Below, in pieces: positions 4,978 to 36,255 of a stretch of 43,672 nucleotides of DNA. The stretch is from a virus: positions 1 through 43,672 of the IMG/VR virus record IMGVR_UViG_3300017730_000020; one strand, given 5' to 3'. The notes beneath the pieces are model-generated. The model had not been told where the DNA came from, made no database searches, and saw only the letters and a list, made by a program, of their open reading frames with translations. Position numbers and translations under genes: made by a program. The first letter of the stretch is position 1. Every line of letters begins with the position of its first letter.

Positions 4978-5002
4978 TTTTAACTCCGTTTTATGTTATA
5001 TC

Positions 5003-5932
5003 CTATTTCCAAGGATTTTTTGATTCATAATCACTAATCAGGTCATCCATAATTAAATCGCTGGCACTCTTTCCAGTTTGTTGCATGTTAGCGCTACTCT
5101 GGACTCCCATAGGTGCCGGAACTGATTGTGCTCTCTGAACTTGGTTGAACTGGGGAGAAGGCTGTGCAACGGGTTGCTCAGGTACTTTACCTTTGTCCAT
5201 TTGGTATAAACGCCATAGGTTTTCAATATTTAATGATTCAGGGTCGCTCATTTTTTTTATAAAGTCATTGACCTCTTCATCATTAGCATTGTATTGACTC
5301 TTTATCTGTTGTGAAATAGTATTCACTTGTTCTTGATTACGCTTTTCAGCATCAAAAGCTTCTGTTTGCCTTTTTTGTTCTTCGGCTAACGCATCTCTTT
5401 CTATCTGTAATAAATTAGCCTCATAATCTAATTTATCAGCGTTATAAGAATCCATCTCATCCCTGTAGTTGTCCATAGTATCTAAATACTGCGCACTAGC
5501 ACTATTAGGGTCATCAATAGCTTCTGCTCTATTAAAGCCTGCTGGTTTTACTGGTTTCTGCGGTGCATCACGAAACGGTTCGATTTCAGGTTCTGAAGAT
5601 ACTTCTTCAGGCTGATTAGTCGTAGGATTTTGAATAGTCTGCTGTAGAATTTCTACAGTTTTCTTTAACTGTTCATTCTCATTCTTGGCTTTATCTGCTT
5701 CAGACTGCCAATACTGATATCGAACTTCTCCGTTATCTGATGTAGTTTCATAACCTACTTCTGGAGTTTGTTCAGAACTAGTTTCTACAGATTGCTCAAC
5801 TGGAGCTACTGTTTCTTCTGGTTCACTTCCAAAACCCGGAGTAAATACACTATCTACACTATTTTCTATGCCAACAACAGAATCCACCAAATTCTCTTCT
5901 GTTACTTGACCTTGTTGATTTTCTTGAGCCAT
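5003..5932 (-). CDS. Scaffolding protein (309 aa)
   Basis: Highly acidic at the N-terminus, then a long Gln/Glu/Lys/Asn coiled-coil-like centre (about residues 75-215) with repeated helices such as DKAKNENEQLKKTVEILQQT and LLQIERDALAEEQKRQTEAF, and a short Met/Gln-rich tail ending in SDLIMDDLISDYESKNPWK. This composition, and the place between portal and capsid genes, is that of an internal capsid-assembly scaffold. The C-terminal helix is the likely capsid-binding part. No protease motif is visible, so it is probably not fused to a prohead protease. Confidence 0.75.
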   Translation of the reverse strand: MAQENQQGQVTEENLVDSVVGIENSVDSVFTPGFGSEPEETVAPVEQSVETSSEQTPEVGYETTSDNGEVRYQYWQSEADKAKNENEQLKKTVEILQQTIQNPTTNQPEEVSSEPEIEPFRDAPQKPVKPAGFNRAEAIDDPNSASAQYLDTMDNYRDEMDSYNADKLDYEANLLQIERDALAEEQKRQTEAFDAEKRNQEQVNTISQQIKSQYNANDEEVNDFIKKMSDPESLNIENLWRLYQMDKGKVPEQPVAQPSPQFNQVQRAQSVPAPMGVQSSANMQQTGKSASDLIMDDLISDYESKNPWK

Positions 5933-5955: not shown

Positions 5956-8127
5956 CTAACTAGGAATAGGGGTATCTTGGTTTTTGCCAACTTCTTTTTT
6001 AGTCCTCCTGACTTCAGAAGCCATTTCACTAGTAGCGTCATCAAGGCGTTTCTCATACAAAGTACCTGCGGACTGAGCCCGGTTAGATATCTTATCAAGA
6101 CCTGCCTTAAATTTTTCAACTTCAACTCTTTGTTTTAGATTAACATTTTCTCTATCTCTACTCTGCATATCTCCGGATAATCCTTTAATCTGTTCTTGAG
6201 CTTGTTGTAATTGTCTCGTGAGTTGTTCGATTGTATCTGTTCTTTCTAGAACTCCTTCGACATCAAATATTTCTGTTTTCTTCAATACTTCCTCTTTATC
6301 TATTAATCCATTACGATACGCATCCATATATAATTCTAGTTGCGCATATCTATTTGTTGGAAGCGTTGTTCCTGTTACAACTACAACATCATAGTTACCA
6401 ATTCCTATGTCATTGTATTTTTGTATTGTTTGTGTAAAATCATCGTAGAATCTTTTATTAATCAAATATTCGCTGGTCATATTGTTAGGTTGCACCAGAC
6501 GGATAACTTTTTCTTCTTGGTACAGTTGTTGCATAAGTGGGATTGCAACTTGACATACCCTACTCAGACCAGCTTCTATGTCCATTAACTTTGATTTTAT
6601 CTTTCTTTGACCGAAGTCATCAATAGATACAGTGGCTTTATAAGTATGAGGAGCGGCTTGAGAATTACCCATCATTAACTCATAAAGACCAAGTTGATGG
6701 TCAATATCTGATTTAGCAGTTTGTTCGTTTTGATATAATTCATTTGGTAATGGAAGTGGTTGCACTGGTTGAGGCGCTCCTTGGTCAAAGTCTACTTCTA
6801 TAGCAACACCGGGTTGTGACCACTTTTGTTCAAACTCTCTCATATCAACAGAGCCTGCTGGGACTAAAATTTTTACATTTGTACTAGTAGTAGCATGAGC
6901 TATAATAAGTGACCTAGTTTTATTAATATACTCCTGCATATCCTTACACATTCTAACATCAGAAAGAGGATAAGGTGTTCTTGTGTGTATATTCATAAAA
7001 GGCACTATGGGGTACTTATCAGTCGGCAGTACTCTTTTGTAAAGAAGTTGGTCACCTATTACAACAACTTGACAAACTCTGCATGCTTGAATTTCTACTA
7101 CTTTTATTAAACCCTCATCAATAAACTGAGCCATTGTTGTTACTTCTAATGAAGGTGGTTCTGGTAGTTGACTAGGGTCTAGGCCTTGTTGCTCAGCTTG
7201 TTCAACCATCATTTGATAAGACTGCTGAAGTCTTTCCATTGTCATCCTAGCAACATCTTCTCTTACAATGGGTCTACCTTCTATAATATAAGCTTGTCTA
7301 TTTTGATATTCTTTATATTCTTCATCATCAAAAACATGCTCAACGCCAGTAAATGTTTCATGTACACGAAATCTACTAACCATTTCTTTATAGTATCTTT
7401 CATATCCTCTTACATATTCATCCGACTCTCCTAATGCAGAATCAGTAAGAGTTTCTACATCTTCTGGAAATATAGCTTTACCATCATGCTCTCTACCAGT
7501 TTCAGGCCTATCTGAAAGCCTATCTGAATTAGCATTTTTAATTTTTGTTTCATACTGAGGATACATTTTTCTAGCTTGGTCTCGAGTAAACATTCTAGAC
7601 ACAATCATATTTTCTGCATCATCTCCAAATCTATCTCTTGAATTAGGGTCTATATATAAATCTAATGGGTCTATGTCTTTAATGACTACATCTCCCTTTG
7701 CATTATCACGCATTGGGTCTTGATATACCATCATTACGCCCATTCCACAGGTATAGTAATCATCTACTACATTACGAAGTACACTAATCCCGTCTGATAT
7801 ATCCCACATATAAGCTATTAAAGCATTAAATAATTGAGCTATTTTATTATCACTATCTTCTCGTGGTGATACTCTAAATTGAGGTCTGTTAGCAGTTAAT
7901 AGGGCTTTTGCCATTTCTACTGCGGGATGTATTCTATTTACAACAATAGGAGCTTGTCCACGCTCTCTAAGTACTCGAGCTTGTTCTTTAGTCCATTGTT
8001 GACCTAAACGAAACTCTCGGTCTTCTTGAGCTTGAATAGCCCACTTTTCTCTATTGTTAGAATAGTCGGTAAAAAGTTTTTGGGTAGCGTCAACAACGCT
8101 ATTTTTCTTATTATAGTTCTCAGCCAT
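5956..8127 (-). CDS. Portal protein (723 aa)
   Basis: A long portal of the P22-like class. The start region reads KLFTDYSNNREKWAIQAQED, then FRLGQQWT and APIVVNRIHPAVEMAKALLT, a block typical of podovirus portals. The middle has YYTCGMGVMMVYQDP and IDPLDLYIDPNSRDRFGD, the conserved wing and clip regions. The end is a charged coiled coil of roughly 100 residues (QLQQAQEQIKGLSGDM), which may form the barrel. It forms the twelve-fold ring through which DNA is packaged by the terminase encoded just upstream. The 25-base gap to the terminase gene carries a ribosome site. Confidence 0.88.
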   Translation of the reverse strand: MAENYNKKNSVVDATQKLFTDYSNNREKWAIQAQEDREFRLGQQWTKEQARVLRERGQAPIVVNRIHPAVEMAKALLTANRPQFRVSPREDSDNKIAQLFNALIAYMWDISDGISVLRNVVDDYYTCGMGVMMVYQDPMRDNAKGDVVIKDIDPLDLYIDPNSRDRFGDDAENMIVSRMFTRDQARKMYPQYETKIKNANSDRLSDRPETGREHDGKAIFPEDVETLTDSALGESDEYVRGYERYYKEMVSRFRVHETFTGVEHVFDDEEYKEYQNRQAYIIEGRPIVREDVARMTMERLQQSYQMMVEQAEQQGLDPSQLPEPPSLEVTTMAQFIDEGLIKVVEIQACRVCQVVVIGDQLLYKRVLPTDKYPIVPFMNIHTRTPYPLSDVRMCKDMQEYINKTRSLIIAHATTSTNVKILVPAGSVDMREFEQKWSQPGVAIEVDFDQGAPQPVQPLPLPNELYQNEQTAKSDIDHQLGLYELMMGNSQAAPHTYKATVSIDDFGQRKIKSKLMDIEAGLSRVCQVAIPLMQQLYQEEKVIRLVQPNNMTSEYLINKRFYDDFTQTIQKYNDIGIGNYDVVVVTGTTLPTNRYAQLELYMDAYRNGLIDKEEVLKKTEIFDVEGVLERTDTIEQLTRQLQQAQEQIKGLSGDMQSRDRENVNLKQRVEVEKFKAGLDKISNRAQSAGTLYEKRLDDATSEMASEVRRTKKEVGKNQDTPIPS

Positions 8128-8153
8128 AAGTTATCCTATATAAAATATACTAG

Positions 8154-9653
8154 TTAGAGAGTTAGCCAGTCAAGTACTTTTTTTCCTAACCTATCAGAGG
8201 TGTCAACCTCTTGGTATTCTTTTCTTTTACTAGCTCTTGAGCCATCTAATGCTGTCCACACAGCATCCATAACATCATCATGCTTACCACGGGGATAAGA
8301 TAAAAATTCTGCTTGTGCTTCTATATCTTGAGGCCTAAAAAATAATTGACCTTTTGCAAGTATCGGGACTAGTGAAAGTAATCGCTCTGATTTTCTATTT
8401 CTGGGTTTAACGCCTTTCTCCAGTCCCGGTATATATAAATTCTGTTCTTGCATTTGTTTTCTTACTGCAGACCTTAAAGCCTCTTGATAAGCAACTGTTT
8501 CTATTTTCATCCTTTTGGGTCTATATTTTTTATATTGCTTAATAATAGCATCAGGCTGTTCTGCTGGGTCTAATTTAGTTCGTACTATGTTTATTATGTA
8601 AATATTATTTTCATGGTCTATACCAAGCGTTACTATAACAAAAAAATCAGCTTTAGCTGATAATGAAGATGCAGGGTCTACTCCTGAATATACAGCTACT
8701 GGTATTATTTTTTCTTTATCATCGGGTAATTTTTTAACAAGTATATTCTGTCCATCTCGTATTTCATAATCGTAGTGATGAATTTTAATATAATCTGGTT
8801 TAAACGGAGCATCATCAGGTGATTGAGCTATATTCATATACTCCTGATAGAATCCATTAAGATTACCTACGCTAGCAAATTCATCTTTTATTTGCAATAT
8901 ACGAGATTTAGGGAATCTTTCTGGCCATATACTTACCTCATCATCATTCCAGATACTATACCAAAGAACATCCCAACTAGGAGATTCTTTAGCCCAACAT
9001 AGGAAACAGTCTTCAGAAATAACTGTTCCAATCATAGCTATTCTACCATCATCAGATAATGATGGTATAACAGCTTCTGTTATCCACTTTCTATTTTTAG
9101 CTCTAGCTTCTGGAGTATATGCATTCAGTTCTGACTCAAAGTCGTCAATAATAATGAGGTTAGGTCTAGTATCACCCTCGATAAATCCCCTAACCCTTTG
9201 CCCAGTTCCAACAGCAATAATACGAGCACCATTTGAAAGAATAATATCATTATTAGTCCAACGCCTAGCAGTGTTAGGGCCCATGTCTCCAAAATTTTCT
9301 TTATATGTTTTACTATATGTAAGATGATATTTTATCCTTGATAAGAAGTTAATACTTTGACTTTGACTTTCTGAAATAATAACAATAAATAAGTCTTCAC
9401 TATCTAATTTAAAAGCACACTTCCAAAGAGGGTATATAAGAGATACCGTTGTAGACTTAGCTGTTCCTCGAGGAGCCGCAATTAATAATCTATTTCGAGA
9501 CTCATCCCTAAGGTGTTGGTATAGTTCATTATGAAAAGGGGGTATATCTTTATTTAATGCAGTTGGGAAACAAACTTTTCCAAAAAGCCCTATACTATTC
9601 CTGAATTTCTTTAGTACTTGAAGTTTCTCGTATTGAGCCTCGTAGTTCTCCAT
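8154..9653 (-). CDS. Terminase large subunit (499 aa)
   Basis: Packaging motor and headful/site nuclease. The Walker A motif APRGTAKST lies at residues about 60-68, and a Walker B LIIIDDFESE at about 165-175, followed by a coupling segment (IAMIGTVISED). The RNase H-like nuclease half has YSGVDPASS, IKIETVAYQ and the closing Asp pair in HDDVMDAVWTALDG. Length and order match known large terminases. The start overlaps the upstream gene by 59 bases but has an AAAGGA ribosome site at good spacing, so I keep it. It works with the portal encoded downstream. Confidence 0.92.
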   Translation of the reverse strand: MENYEAQYEKLQVLKKFRNSIGLFGKVCFPTALNKDIPPFHNELYQHLRDESRNRLLIAAPRGTAKSTTVSLIYPLWKCAFKLDSEDLFIVIISESQSQSINFLSRIKYHLTYSKTYKENFGDMGPNTARRWTNNDIILSNGARIIAVGTGQRVRGFIEGDTRPNLIIIDDFESELNAYTPEARAKNRKWITEAVIPSLSDDGRIAMIGTVISEDCFLCWAKESPSWDVLWYSIWNDDEVSIWPERFPKSRILQIKDEFASVGNLNGFYQEYMNIAQSPDDAPFKPDYIKIHHYDYEIRDGQNILVKKLPDDKEKIIPVAVYSGVDPASSLSAKADFFVIVTLGIDHENNIYIINIVRTKLDPAEQPDAIIKQYKKYRPKRMKIETVAYQEALRSAVRKQMQEQNLYIPGLEKGVKPRNRKSERLLSLVPILAKGQLFFRPQDIEAQAEFLSYPRGKHDDVMDAVWTALDGSRASKRKEYQEVDTSDRLGKKVLDWLTL

Positions 9654-13689: not shown

Positions 13690-13958
13690 ATTACGCTTTA
13701 ATTGAATGTATTACCTTTCATCGTAAAATACTAAAAGGGGAATACAAAGGAGACAATACATATAAGAATAATCTTATCGGCATCTACAACAGTCACGAAG
13801 AAGCTGAGTTTATCCTGTCTAAATCTAAAAAGCATTTAGTCGCAAAGGATGCAGTTAAGAGTATTAAATATGATATTGTGAAGACAGATAAACAAGTAAC
13901 AACAAGCAAGGTTGGTAATTATATCAATCGTAATAAACAGGAGGTTAGTAATGGCTAA
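13686..13958 (+). CDS. Small hypothetical protein upstream of the ubiquitin-like gene (90 aa)
   Basis: Starts inside an ATGA overlap with the previous gene and ends eight bases into the ubiquitin-like gene. It is a mixed alpha/beta, basic protein: LIECITFHRKI, GIYNSHEEAEFILSKSKKHL and SIKYDIVKT give a strand-helix-strand pattern suggestive of a small ferredoxin-like or DUF fold. No family was recognised. Double translational coupling ties its production to that of the ubiquitin-like protein. Confidence 0.6.
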   Translation: MNYALIECITFHRKILKGEYKGDNTYKNNLIGIYNSHEEAEFILSKSKKHLVAKDAVKSIKYDIVKTDKQVTTSKVGNYINRNKQEVSNG

Positions 13959-14184
13959 CAACAATCCAGTAGTAATAAGATACATGGCGTATCACACAGG
14001 TGGAGTACCAAAGACTGTAGAGGCATCTACTCCAGCAGAGATTGCTGAAAAAGAAGGATTTGGCATTGATGACAATCAAGTAGCGATTTTCGTTGGTGGT
14101 AAATCTGCAACCCCAAACACTCGATTAAAAGAGGGTCAGGTTGTATCTTTTCAGAAAGCTCGCCAAGAGTCTGGTAATAAATAA
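13951..14184 (+). CDS. Ubiquitin-like (beta-grasp, ThiS/MoaD-type) modifier protein (77 aa)
   Basis: The ATG at 13951 has an AGGAGG site; an earlier in-frame start lacks one. Predicted order fits a beta-grasp fold: strand NPVVIRYMAYH (5-15), strand KTVEAS (21-26), helix PAEIAEKEGF (28-37), then NQVAIFVGGKS (42-52), NTRLKEGQVVSFQKA (56-70). The L-K-E-G-Q-V-V-S-F turn and strand is the ThiS/MoaD/prokaryotic-ubiquitin pattern, in which L-x-D/E-G-D-x-V precedes the C-terminal tail. The tail ends QESGNK, not Gly-Gly: a single Gly75 lies two residues before the end, so trimming might be needed. The E1-like, JAB and E2-like genes follow, which supports the call. A sulfur carrier is the main alternative. 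Confidence 0.7.
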   Translation: MANNNPVVIRYMAYHTGGVPKTVEASTPAEIAEKEGFGIDDNQVAIFVGGKSATPNTRLKEGQVVSFQKARQESGNK

Positions 14185-14192
14185 CCTGTTAC

Positions 14193-14227
14193 ACCCCCCT
14201 AAGCAATTAGGGGGGTTTAATTTTTTT
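14193..14227 (+). terminator. Strong terminator between the modifier and its enzymes
   Basis: Perfect 9-bp stem ACCCCCCTA (14193-14201) with TAGGGGGGT (14208-14216), six-base loop, followed by TTAATTTTTTT. It should stop most transcripts after the ubiquitin-like gene, so the three enzymes downstream would be made at a lower level, by read-through or from a hidden promoter. Confidence 0.85.
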
Positions 14228-14248
14228 CTAATTTAAAAGGAGTTAAAC

Positions 14249-16240
14249 ATGAAAATAACATACGAAAGATTAAATATTGATTCAACAATATTATGTCCAA
14301 TATCTGTTACCAAAGAAAGTACAACAACAATGCTTAACAGGTTCTTTAATTTAAATGAAAACAAAGCTTTTTGGGAAACATTTTTAAACGATTATGAATT
14401 GTTTTATGATTATGACCATAAAAGTTTCTTTTATATTGTAAGAAATGCAAGACTAAGGTTGCGTAAATATTTTTATATGCCACCTATATATGTAAAACTT
14501 AATTTATTACAAAAAGAGCAATTTGGAGACTTAGAACCTCAGCATATTAGATATCTTCAAAAGTTTGATTATTATAGCAATACAATAAACGAAGATGATT
14601 CAAAATCTTATGAATTTGATAGTGAATTTTCATTTATGTCAGCTTATCATCCTCATGTAGATAGTAACGCTTGTGCGTGTTATGGTAGATGGGCTACTCA
14701 AATAACAGAAGCATATAGTAACGGCTTGGTTTACCCATTTATGGAAACTATCAGAGCTTATCTAAATGATTATAATGGTAGAAGTACATTTTATAGTATA
14801 GACCCTTATGCTTTTGATGATAAACATAGTTTAAAAATAAATAATTTTGGCACTTATAAAGAAGATTGGTTAGCTATAAGTTCTAAAATGGAATTTGTTT
14901 ATGGCGAACAATGGTTAATGGATTTTTGTGAATATAAAAACCTTAATTATGATATGTATTATAAAATATTTCTTTATTATCAAAATAATGATGTAAGAAT
15001 GTTTGATAATGCTGACCAATTACATAGCGTAATGTTTAATGATGTACTGAAACAATATGTGAGTGACTATGATGAATATGTTCATTATAAATATGACATG
15101 ACAGAAGAAGAATGGTCTGTTTACACAGAGTTTAAAGAATGGCTTAAACCTTATACTCAAGAAACAATAAATTTATGGTTAACAGAATTTATTCATCATT
15201 CTTACAGTTCTCCTATTAAAAATGGAGATATTAATGCAATGCAGTATGCAATGGGAACTAGTATATACAGACTAAATAATATGGAACACCTCAGTGATAA
15301 ATTAAGACCTGTATTAGAAAGATATTCTGCTATAGGTGTTATTAATTACTTAGAAAATGTTTTGCTTAATGAGGATGCTAGAAGAGTTGGAAGCTATAGA
15401 CAAGGAAACATGTTTTTATTATTATCTACTAATATTAAACCCAGTCAAATGTATGAATCTTACATTAAATGGGCTGAATATAAAATTGATAATGATAATA
15501 CATCTTTGTTAATGGAAAATTACAGTGCGATATCTAAATCAGCTAGAATGCAAAATCAAGGTTCTTTTGTAGATACTAATATGGAGTTAAAAAGTATTCA
15601 TTACGATATTGATTGGGAAGGTATACAGATGGATGGTTTTAGGCATACATGGATTAATAACTATAAAGACCATTGGAAAGAAATACTAGGGTTAAAATTA
15701 GTTAGAGAGTTAAATCGTTATTGTAATAATATGGTTGAAGACAATGATTTAAATATTAGTAATAGTGATAAAAAACATCTTTTAAACATAATGCTTAACA
15801 GAGAAGAAATAAGAGAAACAACAAATCTTAAAGCACCTAAAATGAAAGATACAATTAGACTTGCTCTTGTCTCAATGCTTAAATATCATAATTTAGGTTT
15901 AACAGGTGATGTCTATAATGAACTAGTTAGTTTCTTAACAGAACAAAACACTGAATATAGTATGAATGAATTAGTAACAATGATGTCTGGAATTGTAAGT
16001 AATGATGAAAACAACTTAGAAGAAAAAAGAGAAAAAATGGTAGATATGATATATGTAGCAATACCAGATTTTCCAAAAGACCTAGATGATTTTCATGACT
16101 ATACAATGAAATCTTGGACAATAATACTAAAAAATGCATTTACACACTATAAAATAAACATAACAAACAAAATAAAGGAGTTAAACAATGTACTTAACAA
16201 TACCTCTAGAAATATATCTCAAACTGAACTATTTTCTTAA
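14249..16240 (+). CDS. Large protein with E2 (UBC)-like N-terminal region (663 aa)
   Basis: Residues about 90-200 show the layout of a ubiquitin-conjugating fold: MPPIYVKLNL (near 92-101), then FSFMSAYHPHVD leading to His134-Pro135, Cys142 and Cys144 (ACACYG), Trp148, and a helix with YPFMETIRAYLNDYN. E2 enzymes have HPN-x(n)-G-x-x-C with a following Trp and helices. The remaining 450 residues are helical, Tyr/Asn/Asp-rich and of unknown family. The gene sits between the ubiquitin-like and JAB genes, the E2 slot in bacterial Bil-type and PRTRC-type operons. The E2 call is a by-eye inference from one motif; either Cys could be catalytic. AAGGAG ribosome site; ends overlapping the JAB gene by 53 bases. 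Confidence 0.5.
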   Translation: MKITYERLNIDSTILCPISVTKESTTTMLNRFFNLNENKAFWETFLNDYELFYDYDHKSFFYIVRNARLRLRKYFYMPPIYVKLNLLQKEQFGDLEPQHIRYLQKFDYYSNTINEDDSKSYEFDSEFSFMSAYHPHVDSNACACYGRWATQITEAYSNGLVYPFMETIRAYLNDYNGRSTFYSIDPYAFDDKHSLKINNFGTYKEDWLAISSKMEFVYGEQWLMDFCEYKNLNYDMYYKIFLYYQNNDVRMFDNADQLHSVMFNDVLKQYVSDYDEYVHYKYDMTEEEWSVYTEFKEWLKPYTQETINLWLTEFIHHSYSSPIKNGDINAMQYAMGTSIYRLNNMEHLSDKLRPVLERYSAIGVINYLENVLLNEDARRVGSYRQGNMFLLLSTNIKPSQMYESYIKWAEYKIDNDNTSLLMENYSAISKSARMQNQGSFVDTNMELKSIHYDIDWEGIQMDGFRHTWINNYKDHWKEILGLKLVRELNRYCNNMVEDNDLNISNSDKKHLLNIMLNREEIRETTNLKAPKMKDTIRLALVSMLKYHNLGLTGDVYNELVSFLTEQNTEYSMNELVTMMSGIVSNDENNLEEKREKMVDMIYVAIPDFPKDLDDFHDYTMKSWTIILKNAFTHYKINITNKIKELNNVLNNTSRNISQTELFS

Positions 16241-17090
16241 ACAATTTCCAACAACAGAATGGTCAGGGCCAGCATGGTATAAGCCTCATTATAGAAAAGG
16301 AGAGAAATTTCCTAAAGGCTTTACACTTGTTCATTTTCATCCCGTTGATTTAGGACATGGTACAGCAACAACAATAGAAGCTGAAGATACTGCAAAAATA
16401 CTTCAGAAAACTTGGAAAGATTATCCAGAAACAGAAAAATGTATGATGGGAATTATACATTCTCACCATAATATGGGTGCGTTCTTTAGTGGAACGGATA
16501 AAAACTGTTTAAAAGATAATGCTCCAATAGAAAACTTTTATTGTTCAACAGTTGTAGCAAGTAAAAAAGAAAAGTTTGCATTTGCTATTAGTTATCAAGA
16601 CCAATATGGCAAAACGCATTTAGTAGAAGCTAATTCTGAGAATATTAATATGCAAATGCCTAATAAAAGCAAAGAACAAGATAAATGGGCTAGAATAGCT
16701 AAGAAAATCAAAGATGATAAAAAGACAACTACTGTTACTAGTTGGTATGATAAAGGAGGCAGTCTTAATCAAGGCAACCTCTTTCCTATGCAGAGTAGAC
16801 CTAGTCAATTTGGTAGTTATTATACTAACAATTTTAGTATTAACGCTTATGATGAATACGATAGCGTTATAACTGGGCAAGAAAAAATCATAGATAAACA
16901 CAGAAAAGATTCTATGACAGCCGATGACCCTGATTCTGCTTATATATCAAGTTTATATAAAAGTATGAATGCAGGAGAAATTGACCAGTTGTTAGTAGAA
17001 GAAGAACTTGAACTAATGAATCTAAATCCAGCAATAGTAATAGATGAAATAGGCAAGGAGGACAAAGATGAATCAAAAGCATCTGCGTAA
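16188..17090 (+). CDS. JAB/JAMM-domain metalloprotease (deubiquitinase-like, 300 aa)
   Basis: Cleaves isopeptide or C-terminal bonds of ubiquitin-like proteins using zinc. All JAMM elements are present: Glu24 in TEWSGP, His91 and His93 in HSH, then exactly seven residues to Ser101 and two more to Asp104 (HSHHNMGAFFSGTD). GFTLVHFHPVD and CSTVVASKKEKFAFAISY give the surrounding strands. Residues about 165-300 are polar, Gln/Lys/Ser-rich and probably disordered or a separate partner-binding tail ending in acidic helices. AAGGAG precedes the ATG. The end overlaps the E1-like gene by 23 bases. In related systems JAB enzymes release or mature the modifier. Confidence 0.85.
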   Translation: MYLTIPLEIYLKLNYFLKQFPTTEWSGPAWYKPHYRKGEKFPKGFTLVHFHPVDLGHGTATTIEAEDTAKILQKTWKDYPETEKCMMGIIHSHHNMGAFFSGTDKNCLKDNAPIENFYCSTVVASKKEKFAFAISYQDQYGKTHLVEANSENINMQMPNKSKEQDKWARIAKKIKDDKKTTTVTSWYDKGGSLNQGNLFPMQSRPSQFGSYYTNNFSINAYDEYDSVITGQEKIIDKHRKDSMTADDPDSAYISSLYKSMNAGEIDQLLVEEELELMNLNPAIVIDEIGKEDKDESKASA

Positions 17091-17811
17091 CAAAGACCTT
17101 ATACCACAAGAAAAACTCAACGATGTAACAGTCGTTGGGTTAGGTGGTATAGGTAGTAGTGTTATTATGTTATTAGCTACTATGGGCTTTAAGTTTATAA
17201 GAGGCTATGATAATGATAACATGGAAGAGCATAATTTTGGCACCACATTATATCCAGAAATATGGTATAATGAGGTTGATAATTCTAAAGCATCAATGGC
17301 TGAAAAAATTATTAAAAGCTACGGAGGTAGTAATGTTGAAATAGATATGCAACAAACTTTGTTTACAGGAGAGGGTCAGGTACTTTCTCCTAAAACAATA
17401 GTTTGTACAGATAGTATGAGCAGTAGAAAGATAGTATATAACAAGTGGCTTGAAAGAGAAGATAGAGAAGTGTTTATAGACCTCAGGATGGATGCACTTT
17501 CTATGAGCTGTATAACAGCAACACAAGGACTTGATAAATATCAAGATTACTGGTTTCCTAATGGAGAGAGTGGACAAGAAGCTCCCTGCACTATGAAACA
17601 TACAATATTCTGTGCAAACCTAATTAGTGGTATTGGTGTAAATCAACTGTTTAATTACTTGACAGGGAGACCTTTTTATGGCTATATTTGGCAAGGTCTT
17701 TCGCCTTTAGTAATAAAGACAGAAGACTTCAATAGTGGAGAAGTAAATAACACAAACAATATAACTGAGGAGAATGCGTATGCAAATACAAACTCGTACA
17801 GTTACAACTAA
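17068..17811 (+). CDS. E1-like / ThiF-type adenylating enzyme (247 aa)
   Basis: Activates the C-terminus of a beta-grasp modifier by adenylation. The nucleotide-binding GLGGIGS is at 24-30; GYDNDNMEEHNF (46-57) is the acidic strand followed by the conserved Asn56; Lys74 and Lys80 follow; TDSMSSR (114-120) is the Asp-x-x-x-x-x-Arg motif of the family; Cys174 in EAPC is the candidate thioester Cys before the helix that resembles MoeB/ThiF (ISGIGVNQLFNYLTG). The usual Arg finger just after the Asn (N-x-x-R-Q) is replaced by GTT, so catalysis may differ or need a partner. Shorter than MoeB-type enzymes plus rhodanese; no zinc Cys pairs. GGAGG precedes the ATG. Confidence 0.85.
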   Translation: MNQKHLRNKDLIPQEKLNDVTVVGLGGIGSSVIMLLATMGFKFIRGYDNDNMEEHNFGTTLYPEIWYNEVDNSKASMAEKIIKSYGGSNVEIDMQQTLFTGEGQVLSPKTIVCTDSMSSRKIVYNKWLEREDREVFIDLRMDALSMSCITATQGLDKYQDYWFPNGESGQEAPCTMKHTIFCANLISGIGVNQLFNYLTGRPFYGYIWQGLSPLVIKTEDFNSGEVNNTNNITEENAYANTNSYSYN

Positions 17812-18619
17812 TTGGAACGAACAACCTGCGGGGCTGACTTGGTATTTTATAGGTCAGCCCAAAACAGGTAAAACCACAGCGGCCGCTAACTGGTCTGCAA
17901 AAGGTGCTAAAGGTGTCTTAATGATAGATACTGACCTTGGTGCAGACTTTGTTGACGGTGCTAATGTTGTAACAGTTACATCACTTAACCCACCTTTTAC
18001 AGGAGAAGGGGATGATAGAAAAATGATACCCCCTCTTGAAAGAGGATTTTACCATAGAGTTGGCCCTAAAAGAGGCGAACCAATGGAGGTTTATTCTTTA
18101 TTTGAGGTATATACTTGGATAAAAGATAATTGGAAATCTCTAGGCTATGAAAGCTTGGTAATAGACACAATAGATACTATTAACGAATGGATACAGGAAG
18201 CTGTATGCGAAGAGTTAGGTATAAGTGCAATGGGTCAAGGAGAATGGGGAGCTGATTGGGGTAAAGCAAGAAAGAAAAATGTGGATATAGTTAAGAGATT
18301 ACAAACTCTAATGAAAGCACATGGTTCTAACTTAATACTCACTTCCCATAGTAAACAATCCCAAATGAATGATGGCAAAGTGCAATTAAGTCCTGAATTA
18401 CCAAGAGGTCTTGGATATGCGCTATGTGCTAAAGCCGATGTAATAGGATACTCAACCGTAGTTAAAGATGAATTGATACCAAAAGTATCTTTTCAAGCTT
18501 ATGACGAAAGAACAGTTGGCTCTAGACTTAAGCCATTAAATGGGCTTGTTCTGCCTTTTACATATACTGATGTAAATAAGGCAATAACCGAATACAAAGA
18601 AGATGAAGGAGAAAGCTAA
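17780..18619 (+). CDS. Sak4-like RecA-fold ATPase for phage recombination (279 aa)
   Basis: A P-loop ATPase of the AAA_24/Sak4 type: Walker A GQPKTGKTT at 25-33, Walker B-like GVLMIDTDLGAD, sensor-type SLVIDTIDTINEW, and ILTSHSKQSQ. These proteins stimulate single-strand annealing or act as RecA-like partners of phage single-strand binding proteins. I chose the ATG at 17780 because it sits at good spacing from GAGGAG; the ATG at 17774 is too close. It overlaps the E1-like gene by 32 bases, so the conjugation cassette and the recombination genes share one transcript. The next gene encodes its likely binding partner. Confidence 0.75.
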   Translation: MQIQTRTVTTNWNEQPAGLTWYFIGQPKTGKTTAAANWSAKGAKGVLMIDTDLGADFVDGANVVTVTSLNPPFTGEGDDRKMIPPLERGFYHRVGPKRGEPMEVYSLFEVYTWIKDNWKSLGYESLVIDTIDTINEWIQEAVCEELGISAMGQGEWGADWGKARKKNVDIVKRLQTLMKAHGSNLILTSHSKQSQMNDGKVQLSPELPRGLGYALCAKADVIGYSTVVKDELIPKVSFQAYDERTVGSRLKPLNGLVLPFTYTDVNKAITEYKEDEGES

Positions 18620-19230
18620 TGGCGTTATTACAATCAAGTAGTAATACAAAAATGAATAGTGATTTTACTGGTTATTTTGAAGCTGGTATAGAAAAAGTCG
18701 AGGATAAGAGCGGTCAATATGACTGGGCTGATTGTTGGCTTGATGTACACTTTAAAATAAAAAACAGTAAATACCCACAAGTTCATTCTATCAAAGGTTC
18801 TTATGAAAAGAATCCTGACGGAACAGTAAGCATCAATAGAGTAGTTAGGCAGTTTAACTATTTAAAAGATGCTATTGGTTTCGAAGGTGGAATCAATACT
18901 GAAGGAGACTGGGAAATGGCTAATGGTGAAAAGATAGACAGTATAGAGTCTACTTTAAACAGCTATATTTCAGAAATGAACGGTAGTGATAATCCTTTGC
19001 TAGAACCGCCTCATAACTACCTAATATATGTTTATAGAGAAGCACCAAAGAAACAAGGTGATAAAACATATAAAAGGGTGTTGGGTAAAATAGTCGATAA
19101 TGATAATGCAGGTAGAAGTGACTTAGAAAGTTATGTAACCTACATGAAGCAAAAAGGCTATCTAAAGGAAGCGTCTGAAAATGACACCCCTTCCGCACCA
19201 ACTCAACCTCAAAGCGACATGCCATTTTAA
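18619..19230 (+). CDS. Single-stranded DNA-binding protein (DUF669-like, 203 aa)
   Basis: Predicted beta-rich (OB-like) front half with FTGYFEAGIEKVEDKSG and WLDVHFKIKNSKYPQ, then a polar middle and a C-terminal tail ending QPQSDMPF. An acidic-hydrophobic tip of the type DMPF is typical of single-strand binding proteins, which use it to recruit partners. It follows a Sak4-like ATPase and precedes a primase-helicase; pairs of Sak4-like and DUF669-like genes are common in phages. Overlaps both neighbours by one base. The OB assignment comes from pattern and context. Confidence 0.7.
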   Translation: MALLQSSSNTKMNSDFTGYFEAGIEKVEDKSGQYDWADCWLDVHFKIKNSKYPQVHSIKGSYEKNPDGTVSINRVVRQFNYLKDAIGFEGGINTEGDWEMANGEKIDSIESTLNSYISEMNGSDNPLLEPPHNYLIYVYREAPKKQGDKTYKRVLGKIVDNDNAGRSDLESYVTYMKQKGYLKEASENDTPSAPTQPQSDMPF

Positions 19231-21029
19231 TGGAGCTTTATGTTGAAGTAGCTATAGGGAGCCCCCACCAAAGGGGGCTTCTTATGCCTTTAGGTAAATA
19301 CGAAAAAAACATGTCCGAGTTTTTAGAGCGGGGACAATACATACCCATATACAGGTCTCATTATCTATATGATAAAGATGCTTATCTATTTGTACAAGAT
19401 AACAAATCACTAAAAGACTACACGGGTAAAAGGTATGTTGATAATATACTTATTGATATTGACCGTAAAGATGATAGTGACGATAGAGTATTAGAAAAAG
19501 CTAAACTTGCAGTAAACGAACTTAATTCAATGGGACTAAAAGATGGTAATTATAGTATCTTTTATAGTGGTACAGGTTACCATATATTAGTTTCTGCTGA
19601 TTGTTTTGACTTTACACCAAGTGAACAGTTACCTTATATAGTAAAACAAACAATGACACAGCTATTTACTACAGTTAATATAGACCCTGCTGTGTATATG
19701 AGGACTTCTATATATAGAGAACAAGCTACTAAAAATGCTAAATCAAACTTGTTTAAAACAAAACTATCGACACAAGGTTTTATGCAATTAACCTTTGATA
19801 AAATAAGAAAACTCGCATCAAAACCTTCAGATATAGACTGGGAAGAAACTCTTTGGGGTGATGGCAGTTTAGAAGGTAAAGTAAAGACTAGTGTAGAAAC
19901 TGTTCGTTCTTTTAAAGCTGTACAAGAGCCTACAAAAGTTGCACCTTGTGTGCAACAAATGTTTGCTGAAGGCCCTAATGAAGGTAATAGAAACAATGTT
20001 ATATTGCGTATGGCTTCGCATTTTAGACGAAATGGTATACCCTCTGATGCTACAAAAGCATCCCTATTACACTGGAACAATAATCAACTTCGTGAAGAAA
20101 TTGTATTAGAAAAAGTAGAAAGTGTATACAATAACGGGTATCAATATGGCTGTCAAGATGTTGAAATGAAAGCTAGATGTAAAACGCATTGTATACATTA
20201 CAAAAAGAAAGACTATGACATAGAAGTTAAAGACTTTCAACAACTACAAAAGAGACTAGAAGAAAGAATGTCAACTGACTTTAGTGGAAAAACAATAGAT
20301 TTATCAAAAATATTTGGTCTACCAGATGTTGATTGTACAATCTATCCCGGTGAGTTAGTTACTATATTTGGGCCTACTGGCGCAGGTAAAACTACTGTTG
20401 CTCAAAACATTATCTTAGGGTATAATTCTGCTCAAGACAGAATAGACCAAGATTCACAACTAAATACTTTGTATTTAAGTTTAGAATTGAGTGATTGGTA
20501 TATGCATAAAAGACATATTCAAATAGTTGCTGATGTAGATAAACAACAAGTCGAAGGAGATGTTTCTAAAATAGCAGAAGACCATAAAGACTTACTAGAC
20601 CATGTTGTTATACAAACTGTTCAACCAACCTTAGATAGTATTCAAACAAAAATAAGAGAACTAGACCCTCAGGTTGTTGTAGTAGACTATATAGACTTAA
20701 TAGACCCGGGCCCTACAAAGCGTGGAGAGTACGAAGCTATTAGGTATATTAGTCACTCACTTAGTAATATGGCAGTTAATAACGACATTATTATTATACA
20801 GCTATCACAAGTAGCTAGAGAATATAGTAAAAATGATGTCTTAGACCTTTACGCAGGTAAGGGTAGTGGTGCTATAGAAAATGCATCTCGTAAGGTACTA
20901 GGTATTAATGGTCAAGCAAAAGACCCTATTAAGTACCTATCCTTATTTAAAAACAGTGATGGTGAACTTTTTAGTGATATTCCACTAAGATGGAGACCTT
21001 CATTTAGACTAAGGAGAGATTATGAATGA
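19230..21029 (+). CDS. Bifunctional primase-helicase (AEP primase plus DnaB-type helicase, 599 aa)
   Basis: The N-terminal 330 residues are an archaeo-eukaryotic-type primase: catalytic Asp76 and Asp78 in LIDIDRKDD, then SGTGYH at 113-118 with His118. Near 290-330 a short Cys/His cluster (CKTHCIHY) may bind zinc. The C-terminal part is a hexameric DnaB-like helicase: Walker A GPTGAGKTT at 381-389, Walker B QVVVVDYIDLIDPG (near 480-495) and IIIQLSQVAREYSK. It would prime and unwind at the phage fork and needs a host polymerase, as none is seen here. Met19, after a strong hairpin, is an alternative start. Confidence 0.8.
   Translation: MELYVEVAIGSPHQRGLLMPLGKYEKNMSEFLERGQYIPIYRSHYLYDKDAYLFVQDNKSLKDYTGKRYVDNILIDIDRKDDSDDRVLEKAKLAVNELNSMGLKDGNYSIFYSGTGYHILVSADCFDFTPSEQLPYIVKQTMTQLFTTVNIDPAVYMRTSIYREQATKNAKSNLFKTKLSTQGFMQLTFDKIRKLASKPSDIDWEETLWGDGSLEGKVKTSVETVRSFKAVQEPTKVAPCVQQMFAEGPNEGNRNNVILRMASHFRRNGIPSDATKASLLHWNNNQLREEIVLEKVESVYNNGYQYGCQDVEMKARCKTHCIHYKKKDYDIEVKDFQQLQKRLEERMSTDFSGKTIDLSKIFGLPDVDCTIYPGELVTIFGPTGAGKTTVAQNIILGYNSAQDRIDQDSQLNTLYLSLELSDWYMHKRHIQIVADVDKQQVEGDVSKIAEDHKDLLDHVVIQTVQPTLDSIQTKIRELDPQVVVVDYIDLIDPGPTKRGEYEAIRYISHSLSNMAVNNDIIIIQLSQVAREYSKNDVLDLYAGKGSGAIENASRKVLGINGQAKDPIKYLSLFKNSDGELFSDIPLRWRPSFRLRRDYE
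19259..19280 (+). promoter_or_regulatory. GC-rich hairpin at the start of the primase-helicase gene
   Basis: GAGCCCCC (19259-19266) pairs with GGGGGCTT (19273-19280) around a six-base loop, 30 bases into the coding sequence and four bases before the in-frame ATG at 19284. It looks like a terminator without a proper T-run and may regulate which start is used. Confidence 0.5.
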
Positions 21030-24023: not shown

Positions 24024-25457
24024 TTATTCATTGTCGTTTAAATAACTATAACTAAGTAAACCTGAACCTGCTAATCCTGCCATACCTGCTCCTGCTTGTA
24101 CTCTGTTTCTCATAAAGTAATTATTATATTGTGCAAAACCTTTTTGATTTTTAGCATTATTAACTAAATTGTTATGTTCTTTATATAACTTGTTAATATT
24201 TACTCTATCTGTTTTAGCTAAAGGACTATAATTAGATAGTATTTTTACTTGCTCTGCTTTTGTAGGGTCTAATTGCTTAGGTGTTGGTACAGCAAAACCA
24301 CTATCTTTAATAGCTTTTCTTTGTGCTTTTCTAGCCATGATTTCTGCATATGCATCTGTATTATCAGAACCTTGCAAAGATTCTTTTAATAAATCATCTG
24401 CTTCATCGTATAGCTCTTGTATATTTTTTTTAGCTTTAGGTATACTTATTTCTCTAGCTTTAGTTATATTAAGTGTACTTCTACCTTTTGTTTCTGCAGA
24501 CAAACCAAATAAATCAGGCCTGTCACTTGCTAACATTTTTATTTTAGTTGGGTCTTTTTTAGGATTAAACTTAATTAACCCTTTATAACCGCCCCAATCA
24601 TAATTAGGCTTACCCTTAGGAGACATAGATATATAAATATCATCACCAATTTTTGATGTATTAAAATCACTAAATATAGCTTTTACAGCTTTATAATCCC
24701 TATCTTGAGGTATTTTTATATTATCTAATCTTTGCAATCCATTATATACTCTTCTATCAAATTGTATCATTCTTAATACATCACTATGTGGTACATTTTT
24801 ATATACTGCAAATTGATTATATAAAGTAGGAGTTTTTTGAAATCCTATACCAAGCATTTTTAAATCTTGTCCATCAAAATCATCAAGTACATTATACTTA
24901 TTCTTCATATCTACTAATACGCCTTTAGCAGTTCCACCTTCTCTATTAATAAATCTATTTATTCCTCTGTATGGTGTTTTACCTGTATACATATATGTAT
25001 TTCTATAATCATTAGTAAGTTTAGCAAATACTTTTTTATCAGCATTTTTTATTAAACTTCTGGCTTTATTATAACTTATTTCATCTCTTTTAAACATATC
25101 TATAGCTTCTTTTTTTACGACTTTAGACTGGTCGTATATATCCTTACTAACTTTAGATATTCCTGTTTTTCTATATGCAAATGATTGCGATGGACTTAAT
25201 GATTGTTGAGCCATTCTTGCAGTGCCTTTAATGCCCTCTTTACTTGCTAAAAATGCCTTACCAACACCACCTACTCCTTTACCATAAAAACCCTGAAGAA
25301 AGTTATTCATACTTGATACAAACAAATTTCTAGCTCTTCCCCCACCAAATAAAACAGCTCTACTAGCTAATCTTACACTGGGTACAGCTATGCTTGCAAC
25401 TGTTGCTAATTGTAAAAGATTATTAGCAAATTCATTATTATCTTTTTGTTCAGCCAT
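24024..25457 (-). CDS. Internal virion or ejection protein (477 aa)
   Basis: A basic protein with hydrophobic or Gly/Ala-rich stretches at both ends (NNLLQLATVASIAVPSVRLA near 14, GAGMAGLAGSGLLSYSYL at the end) and a helical, Lys/Asn-rich centre. It lies directly after the giant virion protein, whose stop overlaps its start. Ends rich in small hydrophobic residues suggest membrane contact during genome delivery, as in phage ejection proteins, but no known family was recognised. Confidence 0.55.
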   Translation of the reverse strand: MAEQKDNNEFANNLLQLATVASIAVPSVRLASRAVLFGGGRARNLFVSSMNNFLQGFYGKGVGGVGKAFLASKEGIKGTARMAQQSLSPSQSFAYRKTGISKVSKDIYDQSKVVKKEAIDMFKRDEISYNKARSLIKNADKKVFAKLTNDYRNTYMYTGKTPYRGINRFINREGGTAKGVLVDMKNKYNVLDDFDGQDLKMLGIGFQKTPTLYNQFAVYKNVPHSDVLRMIQFDRRVYNGLQRLDNIKIPQDRDYKAVKAIFSDFNTSKIGDDIYISMSPKGKPNYDWGGYKGLIKFNPKKDPTKIKMLASDRPDLFGLSAETKGRSTLNITKAREISIPKAKKNIQELYDEADDLLKESLQGSDNTDAYAEIMARKAQRKAIKDSGFAVPTPKQLDPTKAEQVKILSNYSPLAKTDRVNINKLYKEHNNLVNNAKNQKGFAQYNNYFMRNRVQAGAGMAGLAGSGLLSYSYLNDNE

Positions 25458-28400
25458 TACATTATTCCAGCAAATAAATCAGATGCTTTAGTTCCGGGAG
25501 GAGACCAAGATTCTTCACCTTTTTCTTCTTTCTCCTTTTCTTTTACACTTAATCTTTTTGCACTTACTACTGGTATACCTGTTAATTTATCTATACCATA
25601 GTAAGGATTATCTGTTAAACCACCCGGGCCAACAAGGTCTCTTGCTAATCTTCCAAATGGAAACATTGTCCAAGCGTAATAATTACCCATCTTTTCCCAA
25701 TCATCGTTAATAAAACCATTAAGTATAGGCCCTGATAACCTAAATGATGGAGGCGTAATAAGTTGTAAAGGAGCAAGGGCAGTTGGATAAGAACCAAAAA
25801 AAGCTCTGTCTCTTTCTTTTTCATTTCCAAATACCCAGTCAGATAAATCTTGAAACCAAGCATAGGGTTGTGGCATTTGTGAACCAAATAATGAATACAT
25901 AAACATTGAACCAAGTGCTAAAGACACCATGTCAGCCATCATAAGCCTTTTAAAACGCTCATATTGTTGACTATTTGGGTCTACACCATATATACTAGCT
26001 TCCTTTAAAATCTTATTTCTAAACCTTACACTATTCCAAGCCCATAATTGAAACCTAGTCATTACCTTACCCATAGCAGTACCTGCAAATAAAGGTCTAA
26101 ATGGAACGCTATATAAAAATTGAGTAGCTTTAACCCCTCTTTTACCAAGTTCTATTAAAAAAGGATGGTCTCTTTCTAGTATTCTACCGCCAAGTTTATT
26201 TTTTGCTTGTATATAGTGAGCTATAAATGAATCTCTACGCAATGCTCTTTCTGGCATTGACATAAATTTGCCAGCTACATCCATCATTCCTTGACTTATT
26301 CCATGTTTTTTGCCCAAGTCTCTAAACTTTACATCGGGTAAATCAGGGTCTTTTTTAACAGCTTGTTTAAAATCTTTTAAGAAGGAATTAAATTTAGCCC
26401 CAGTTAACCTTGGGTTGGCACCTACTTCACGAATTATAAATTCTTCAATGATGCCTAGCTCTCTAACCCAAGTATTAACATCGTTCCAAGTTTTAAATTT
26501 GCTATCAATATTCCTTCTTAAAAAATCTAAATCTTTAGCTTTCCTAAAGTTATTCCACCCTGCATTAACAACAGTCATTTGCGTACCACCTAAATAGTTA
26601 CCAACACTTGACTTAGGGTGAGCAAGTAATGTAGCTAATGAATACTTAGCTTCTGCATTACCTATATTTATTACAGTTTGTGCATCTATACGACCTAAGT
26701 CTTTTAACTCAGGTGGTAAATCTTTACCTACTAAATTTAACTTTTTAGCTATTTTATCAAACCTTTGTGCTACCATGTTATCAGCAAAAGCACTATAAAG
26801 TGTGCCTTTAATATTCATATTTTTGTTTTCATAAAGCTGTGTAGGTATAATACTAGGAAATCCTAAAGCTTGTTGACTATAAAGTTTAAAGAAATTCATC
26901 CAATTACTTTTTAATTCTGCAGGCATATCTCTATGTTTATCAGCAAACTTAACGATAGTTTCTCTAGCCATAAGCTGACCTACTTGTCTATATAACATCC
27001 TGTTAATACTATTGCTATATTCAAGATAAGCTTCTGGACTTAAATTCCAACCATCAATATGATTTTCTCTTGAAAATTGACTACCTATTTTACCTGTATT
27101 TTCAAACCAAGTTATCTGTTCTTTTAAATCTTTTTTACCTTGATATTTAACAATAGCATCTGTTACAGTTTCCCAAGCTTCATTTTGTACATCCATTTCT
27201 ACAAAATCACCACTAAGCTGTTTAGTTTGCATATAAACTTTAGCAATTTTTTCTTTCTTTTCAGCTTCGGGTAAGTTGCTTTCCCAAATCATTTTAATCT
27301 TTTTTCGTAAATCACCCGTAACAATGCCTCTTTCAAACATTTTAGACACATGTGGAAAATAACCAAATAATGCTTTTTTATCTTTTACATACCCTTCAAA
27401 GCCTAGTTTGCCTGTTTTTTGTAGTGGCATTCTTGTTAATGCAGAACTGGCTCCATTTCTTAAAGTTTTCCTTATTGGATTCCTGTCTCCAGCTTGTCTT
27501 TCTGCATTTCTTAACTGTTGTATCTGAAAACTTAATATAATTTTACGCATACCATCTATGCCAATTTTATCTTCAGGCATAGCTTTACCATGTTTCATAT
27601 GGTCTAAAAAGAAATCAATTACTTTTTTTCTGTTAAAAAGAGGTATCTCTGTTTTATATCTATTCCCACTAGCATCAACGCCTTCTATATATTCTACATT
27701 ACCTCTACCATCTTTATTAGCAAAACTATTTACAAAGTCTACATCTCCTGTTAGTTTAACCCAGTTTTCTTGATTTTTAACTGCTACTAAATCTTGTATT
27801 TCTCTAACAACTTCAAATGCAGGTTTTCTTTCACCCCCTACCATAGTTAGTAATTTTTCTCTATTTTTATCCCATTCTACTTTTTCAGTCCATTCTTTTA
27901 ATCTGTTTTCATATGTTTGTGCATAACTTTCTGATATAGCATCTCCATCTTTAGCTTTTTGCCTTAATCTTGGGATTTCAAACTTTGCTTCTGCATCAGC
28001 CATAGCATACCACCACAAGTTTTCACCTAACTCAGTATTCATATATTTTTCAGTAGCTTCACCCCATTTGCGCTCTTCTCTTTGGCCTTGCATAGTACCA
28101 AGTTCTTGAGATAGGTATATATGATTTTGTATTTCACCCATCCACCCTTGAGCTGATTTAGATTTACCCGTAACCCAGTTACCATACTTATCTTTAAATA
28201 TAGTTTCTGAATCGTTCCATTCTATTTCATGCCTCATTATGTCTCTTTCAATAGCTTCAGGAAACATATGATAAAATCTTTTAGCTAATTTAGGAAATTT
28301 TCCTTCTACTTTTGCAAAAGTTCTTTGAAACCAAGTACCATCTCTATGGCTTTTAAATATATTATTTACAATTTTCCAATCAGTAGCGTTCATTGTATTA

Positions 28401-36021: not shown

Positions 36022-36255
36022 TTAACCTCTTAATGTAAAATTAGATGCATTAGACCTAACCCAACCATCTTTGTGTTTAAATTCAATATAATATTTGCTC
36101 TCTTCTTTAAGTACTCTATATGTACCTAATTGTAAAGTTTCATTTTTATCTGAAGAGTTACTTCTATTGTTTACAATGCTTTGTTCTAAAATATCTAGTC
36201 TTTTTTCTAGTTCTTCAAATTCCATTTTTATTAAAGGGTCGCTTACTCTACTCAT
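36022..36255 (-). CDS. Small protein between tail and ejection genes (77 aa)
   Basis: An N-terminal coiled helix (SDPLIKMEFEELEKRLDILEQ) then a short beta hairpin (GTYRVLKEESKYYIEFKHKDG). The start overlaps the end of the 1449-residue gene (ATGA). No known family; an adaptor between the tail and internal proteins is possible. Confidence 0.5.
   Translation of the reverse strand: MSRVSDPLIKMEFEELEKRLDILEQSIVNNRSNSSDKNETLQLGTYRVLKEESKYYIEFKHKDGWVRSNASNFTLRG

Follow-up and report, generated by a model that had tools for sequence, protein, structure and literature searches.

Locus and cassette genes

The DNA analysed here is a 43,672-base virus record from IMG/VR (IMGVR_UViG_3300017730_000020), termed the window in the following; all position numbers refer to it. 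Positions 13951-17811 carry four consecutive plus-strand genes, in the order ubiquitin-like modifier (Ubl), E2-like protein, JAB/JAMM metalloprotease and E1/ThiF-like activating enzyme. This cassette had been described, with the same coordinates and order, in an earlier note made from the sequence alone. The following features were recognised:

13951-14184, plus strand: Ubl, 77-residue beta-grasp modifier (AlphaFold, Foldseek, family profile); GGAGG ribosome-binding site upstream
14170-14181, plus strand: codons for Ser74-Gly75 and an Asn-Lys tail, the predicted maturation point of the Ubl
14193-14216, plus strand: strong hairpin with T-run, terminator-like, in the gap between Ubl and E2 (sequence folding)
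14249-16240, plus strand: E2-like protein, 663 residues, whose N-terminal domain is UBC-like and whose long helical part evolves fast (profile match, secondary structure of the AlphaFold model)
14648-14680, plus strand: active-site-like motif HPH-x7-C of the E2-like protein (H134 to C144), its H-to-C spacing equal to that of HPN...C in UBE2D2
16188-17090, plus strand: JAB/JAMM metalloprotease, 300 residues (Pfam Prok-JAB, 2.7e-6)
16220-16234, plus strand: QTELF, beta-clamp-binding-type motif at the E2 C-terminus (which ends QTELFS), in a stretch shared, in a different frame, with the start of JAB
16770-16784, plus strand: QGNLF, beta-clamp-binding-type motif in the flexible post-catalytic linker of JAB (sequence)
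17068-17811, plus strand: E1/ThiF-like activating enzyme, 247 residues (Pfam ThiF, 1e-10), with GLGGIGS nucleotide loop and catalytic-type Cys174 (CTMKHT)

The arrangement goes beyond chance: the order Ubl-E2-JAB-E1 recurs in all of the 31 non-identical marine loci that span Ubl to E1, with E2 and JAB overlapping, and the ratio of nonsynonymous to synonymous substitution rates (dN/dS) against the close relative L018 lies between 0.04 and 0.25 over the four genes. The E2 gene evolves fastest (0.25 as a whole, 0.13 over the first 190 residues; 0.04-0.07 for the other three), with values of 0.26-0.29 in its helical part, i.e., 4-5 times those of the neighbouring genes. Purifying selection acts on all four. 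As the earlier note had stated, the cassette belongs to the phage itself; it is part of a replication/recombination operon and lies next to a Sak4-like gene (phrog_124), a neighbour in 66 of the 75 marine loci that could be tested.

The modifier and its C-terminal end

Single-sequence scans against Pfam, PHROGs and NCBIfam recognised neither the Ubl nor the E2-like protein. According to structure prediction the Ubl has the beta-grasp fold proposed for it in the earlier note: the AlphaFold model, built from 26 homologues, displays the order b-b-a-b-b-b at a predicted local distance difference test score (pLDDT) of 80, and Foldseek retrieved SUMO1, FAT10, ubiquitin, NEDD8, ISG15, an archaeal ubiquitin and ThiS, all with probability 1.00 and moderate TM-scores (0.5-0.6). 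Comparison of the Ubl profile with solved structures yielded ThiS (E 0.005), weak matches to MoaD and SAMP2, and one unrelated designed repeat protein.

All 26 aligned marine Ubls terminate in Ser-Gly followed by 0-17 variable residues, and at two further loci the protein stops exactly at SG. In crAss-like and Flavobacterium phages a Lys-rich SG site (KKIKSG, KQVKSG) precedes a tail of ~110-230 residues. Ser-Gly is the only invariant pair, beside the start Met, among 17 divergent Ubls of crAss-like, Flavobacterium and marine origin; a few distant Ubls carry Ala in place of Ser (KAG, SAG), (Ser/Ala)-Gly being common to nearly all modifiers. A conserved (S/A)G end with a variable tail is the pattern that would be expected of a modifier matured by JAB. 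In the crAss phage cr106_1, an HNH endonuclease gene is situated between a 92-residue Ubl (SGKF-stop) and the tail, which forms an open reading frame (ORF) of its own with a start codon (L083, 1596-2799; L087, 3770-5000); as read from these sequences, Ubl and tail are naturally separated here near the predicted cut. A group I intron as cause of the split was rejected, since an Rfam search gave no intron match. The crAss-type tails also share a conserved E-I-x-x-M-F-x-F-like motif at their end and contain a repeat, domain-like in appearance, whose core reads KNFT.

The hairpin in the Ubl-E2 gap is strong in most marine loci (z < -3 in 17 of 24, compared with 1 of 20 controls) and divergent in sequence. 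It would possibly let the modifier be produced in excess of its enzymes.

JAB and E1

The JAMM residues of JAB (E24, H91, H93, S101 and D104) are invariant in 20 homologues, in agreement with the earlier claim of a metalloprotease with all motif residues. The E1/ThiF-like assignment is likewise sustained by the Pfam match, ThiF being the only domain found in the protein. Conserved columns of E1 comprise the GxGGIGS loop, a set of Asp, Arg and Lys residues, and a Cys within C-T-M-K-H-T or C-S-Y-K-Q-T; a few distant E1s do not fit this simple Cys pattern in a motif scan. Among solved structures the E1 profile matched best subunit 2 of the SUMO E1 (Uba2), followed by MccB, NEDD8 E1 and ThiF. Loci L173, L176, L177, L181 and L183 contain a conserved protein of ~145 residues (MMTVPQKKYFCKRIDEI...) between JAB and E1.

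The E2-like protein

The earlier note had attributed an HP..C..W motif to the second protein. Its HPH...C core is conserved and the Trp is not: H134, H136, C144 and G146 are invariant in 30 marine homologues, little else being kept, so that the conserved core reads H-x-H...C-x-G. Later-found members show the motif HPHISENGEPCLG, comparable to HPNINSNGSICLD in UBE2D2. The marine E2 profile matched a UBC profile with a p of 0.0012 in hhalign, the best shuffle scoring lower. A widened profile reached E 4.5e-5, probability 69% and a score of 34.8, which none of 200 column shuffles equalled (their maximum was 26.8), the alignment being placed at HPN..C and reaching into the following helix; the UBC side of this comparison consisted of four eukaryotic E2s. 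In the AlphaFold model (pLDDT 75), a helix and strands precede the motif and two helices follow it, a plausible UBC order. When searched against viral models, the AlphaFold model retrieved one unnamed 474-residue protein (probability 0.98); comparison of the E2 and JAB profiles with the sequences of solved structures provided nothing informative. The profile evidence makes a UBC fold likely. Of the E2-like character proposed earlier, a UBC-like active-site region is recovered by profile, with no counterpart in the Foldseek search of the full-length model. One large phage (L184) possesses two genes with the E2-like motif (4925-5830 and 7594-8766), which flank JAB and E1 on either side.

Clamp-binding-type motifs

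Binders of the bacterial beta sliding clamp follow the consensus QL(S/D)LF (PMC9690074, PMC4549789). In the JAB tails of 36 dereplicated marine proteins, Q-x-x-[LM]-F occurs in 12 (0.37 expected from shuffles) and a wider motif in 27 (5.6 expected), with examples such as QLNLF, QLTLF, QTSLPF, QGELPF and QLSLW. Over all 89 dereplicated JABs, QxxLF/QxxLPF is present in 20 (2.1 expected; p 2e-14, an optimistic value like all motif p-values given here, related sequences being counted as independent) and the wide form in 47 (17.9 expected). The other proteins of the loci served as control and contain the strict motif in 1.7% and the wide one in 11.6% of cases per 120-residue segment.

In 29 of 30 marine E2s, Q-x-x-L lies within the last 25 residues, and several distant E2s have a QLSLE.F ending or QNNLF. 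Preservation of Q658 and L661 solely through the overlapping JAB frame was judged insufficient as an explanation: the Gln is kept while JAB residue 11, whose codon always ends in C, varies between six amino acids (L, S, T, N, H, D). Synonymous resampling of the overlapping JAB codons yielded the Gln with a probability of 0.03-0.39 per locus, much of the alternative to Gln being a stop codon; the resampling shows that the end of E2 is maintained and falls short of proving clamp binding. Judged by sequence, a beta-clamp-type motif is present far above chance in the JAB linker and, in marine phages, at the E2 C-terminus.

Distribution among phages

A single E1 query detected 141 relatives in viral contigs, and a broader scan at least 400. 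Every complete locus examined has the order Ubl-E2-JAB-E1, be it in dozens of marine contigs, Flavobacterium phages, large phages or cultured crAss-like phages. Among the matches listed, E2, JAB and E1 occurred together in 55 of 84 new loci according to a motif scan, including contigs of 125-175 kb. A tblastn search against named phages revealed E1 and JAB in Flavobacterium psychrophilum phages, crAss001, DAC15/DAC17, cr106_1, cr111_1, a bajarodcaudo virus and others. In crAss001 the set consists of gp79 (Ubl with tail), gp78 (E2), gp77 (JAB) and gp76 (E1), annotated as hypothetical (gp79, gp78), metalloprotease (gp77) and ThiF/thiamine biosynthesis (gp76); it is flanked by primase gp80 and uracil-DNA glycosylase gp74, with Sak4 (gp84) nearby. 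This wide spread, the (S/A)G end with its variable tail and the clamp-type motifs are new with respect to the earlier note.

Scans insensitive to distant relatives detected no cassette relative on plasmids and, among GTDB representatives, none in bacteria except a crAss-like phage contig binned in a Spirochaetia metagenome-assembled genome (L100, contig SABI01000248.1), whose E1 is 87% identical to that of crAss001. A search for Prok-E2_D in Spirochaetota gave no match and carries no information. In open-licence PMC full texts no paper was found that links crAss-like phages with ubiquitin or describes the cassette.

Comparison with known systems

Bacterial operons of Ubl/E2/E1/JAB content (type 6d, PRTRC), as well as a pairing of Ubl and JAB in the tail modules of lambda-like phages, were reported by Iyer, Burroughs and Aravind 2006 (PMC1779556), where no E1-E2-JAB-Ubl set in phage replication modules is described. 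With type 6d/Bil (BilA-D) and PRTRC the cassette shares Ubl, E2-like, E1-like and JAB genes in one operon; it differs in being phage-encoded, in its position in replication operons and in its clamp motifs and tails after SG, and its E2 keeps HxH ahead of the Cys, whereas 6d E2s are without that His (PMC1779556). PRTRC models matched only below cut-off (PRTRC_A, 14.8 bits at a cut-off of 101.8; PRTRC_ThiF, 20.4 at 144.75) and gave no match for Ubl and E2. Of the PADLOC defence models, only partial E1-E2 model matches to E1 were obtained (best 2.7e-5, over 50 residues), with none for Ubl, E2 and JAB. These profile tests do not place the cassette in PRTRC, or in Bil or CBASS as modelled in PADLOC. 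CBASS Cap2/Cap3 (PMC10097602) has the E1, E2-like and JAB chemistry in common with the cassette, which in contrast has no E1-E2 fusion, contains a separate Ubl, was found without a nucleotidyltransferase and belongs to the phage side.

TAPI (Ubl) and TAPK (JAB) of lambda/T1-like phages (PMC1779556) are also phage-encoded, and their Ubl has a C-terminal Gly region plus an extra C-terminal domain; they come without E1 or E2 and belong to a tail-assembly rather than a replication module. The sulfur carriers CysO (with Mec+ and MoeZ), ThiS and MoaD likewise combine Ubl and E1 (plus JAB in the case of CysO), whereas the cassette includes an E2-like protein and no sulfur-acceptor enzyme was found among its annotated neighbours. 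In the eukaryotic PCNA pathway (Rad6-Rad18, Ubc9-Siz1; PMC9690074), E2-based tagging is tied to the sliding clamp by short Q-motif docking, as proposed below for the phages; this is an analogy only, the motif of the cassette being of the bacterial beta-clamp type. The cassette is a new phage-side variant of known Ubl systems and would involve no new chemistry. The sequence signals suggest a place of the tagging enzymes on the DNA-copying machinery; for phages, no description of such an arrangement was found in the open-licence PMC texts.

Proposed function and alternative explanations

The cassette probably constitutes a complete phage-borne system of Ubl conjugation and deconjugation that works at clamp-loaded replication/recombination sites, a reading we favour with some reserve. 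JAB would trim the modifier to its (Ser/Ala)-Gly end, E1 would adenylate it and take it onto its own Cys, and the E2-like protein would accept it at its HPH...C-x-G Cys and hand it to substrate proteins, from which JAB could also strip it. Because the cassette is part of a replication operon and two of its enzymes carry QxxLF-type motifs, JAB by its flexible linker and marine E2 by its C-terminus are predicted to attach to the beta sliding clamp of the bacterium. Tagging and untagging would then take place at clamp-loaded sites; candidate substrates are the clamp, host polymerase subunits, single-stranded DNA-binding protein (SSB), phage Sak4/helicase, or other replication or repair proteins. 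Conjugation with every transfer step, clamp binding, the substrates and a benefit to the phage are inferences that go beyond what the analysis displays directly: gene content and order, conserved residues, the modelled Ubl fold, the conserved Gly end and motif enrichment. Several results speak against this reading. The E2-UBC profile match is motif-dependent, most of its signal disappearing once HPN/CL is masked in the UBC sequences; the crAss-type E2 profile alone has no UBC match in hhalign; Foldseek found neither a UBC structure nor any significant PDB match for the full-length 663-residue model; a clear clamp motif is absent from roughly half of the JABs and from the majority of crAss-type E2s; and short motifs, with the optimistic p-values mentioned above, are weak evidence of binding.

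Bil is a host-side system of ubiquitin-like conjugation in anti-phage defence. A genuine phage conjugation could itself be aimed at host defence or metabolic proteins (counter-defence, takeover), with the replication operon merely giving early expression; the early-operon location, the host-side Ubl conjugation known from CBASS anti-phage defence (PMC10097602) and the fast-evolving helical part of E2, which might suit changing targets, are in line with this. However, the clamp-type motifs on both JAB and E2 point to the replisome and E2 dN/dS is still well below 1, and we regard host targets as unlikely. Among the possible targets listed in the earlier note (host defences, rival phages, virion or DNA-repair proteins), the clamp-type motifs of JAB and E2 would favour a role at the replisome.

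A sulfur-carrier pathway, which the earlier note had named as its alternative, would have E1 make a Ubl thiocarboxylate with which tRNA, DNA or a metabolite is thiolated, and JAB set the product free in the manner of CysO/Mec+. JAB proteins are able to work with sulfur carriers; ThiS, MoaD and SAMP2 are the best relevant solved-structure matches of the Ubl profile, and E1 resembles ThiF and MoeB too. Nevertheless, every complete locus has a conserved E2-like gene separating Ubl from JAB, E1 has a ThiF domain only together with a conserved Cys, and neither ThiG, MoaE, CysM nor a rhodanese/sulfurtransferase was found among the annotated neighbours; the two enzymes do not match such a pathway, which we consider improbable. 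Bil targets phage tail proteins. The modifier could correspondingly decorate the phage's own virion proteins or shield them from host Bil-type tagging, with the Ubl/JAB pair in the tail module of lambda-like phages (PMC1779556) as precedent; unlike that tail-linked pair, the cassette resides in a replication module on the strand opposite to the head genes of the window, leaving this idea very improbable. Hardly any probability is assigned to precursor maturation without tagging, where JAB would free Ubl or tail as an active peptide and E1 and E2 would be accessory: crAss-like phages, whose tails after SG are long and conserved, would suit it, whereas marine Ubls, in which the tail counts 0-17 residues and is in some cases missing, are still accompanied by E1, E2 and JAB.

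Within the preferred reading of conjugation at clamp-loaded sites, a more specific and doubtful proposal is that a large number of dsDNA phages, gut crAss-like phages among them, use a SUMO/ubiquitin-like pathway of their own to tag either the host beta clamp or proteins bound to it and thereby redirect the replisome to phage DNA. If true, this would give PCNA modification a viral analogue in prokaryotes, and clamp docking, if it holds, would represent an independent case of ubiquitin-like control at the sliding clamp. Ubl conjugation in bacteria has so far been known mainly from host defence or from operons of plasmids and mobile elements. A complete cassette owned by phages and conserved from marine to cultured crAss-like phages would reverse this host-defence picture. 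crAss-like phages are the commonest gut phages, and the cassette genes are among their long-unexplained core genes, whose function is directly testable since Bacteroides serves as laboratory host of crAss001 and DAC15, and Flavobacterium as that of Fpv phages.

Genomic context in the window

Two small ORFs precede the cassette; a Sak4-like ATPase, a 203-residue protein, a primase-helicase and a Mu Gam-like protein come after it. The terminase, portal and major head protein genes (head/packaging) are encoded on the strand opposite to the cassette. The positioned neighbours are:

17774-18619, plus strand: Sak4-like AAA ATPase (phrog_124, 4.1e-23), overlapping the E1 gene
18619-19230, plus strand: 203-residue protein with C-terminal SDMPF, an SSB-like tip (seen in the sequence)
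19230-21029, plus strand: primase-helicase (DnaB_C, 6.4e-17; PriCT_1; phrog_19, phrog_16345)

The 203-residue protein had no family match in Pfam or PHROGs scans; in FpV4 a protein with C-terminal VEDLPF, comparable to SDMPF, directly follows E1. Two giant ORFs of the window, coding for 2994 and 1449 residues (25457-34441 and 36252-40601), are without any Pfam or PHROGs match. Strong AGGAG ribosome-binding sites are located ahead of Ubl and E2 in the window and the marine loci. Because such sites are atypical of Bacteroidota gene starts, they hint that the hosts of the marine phages may belong to a phylum other than that of the crAss-like and Flavobacterium phage hosts.

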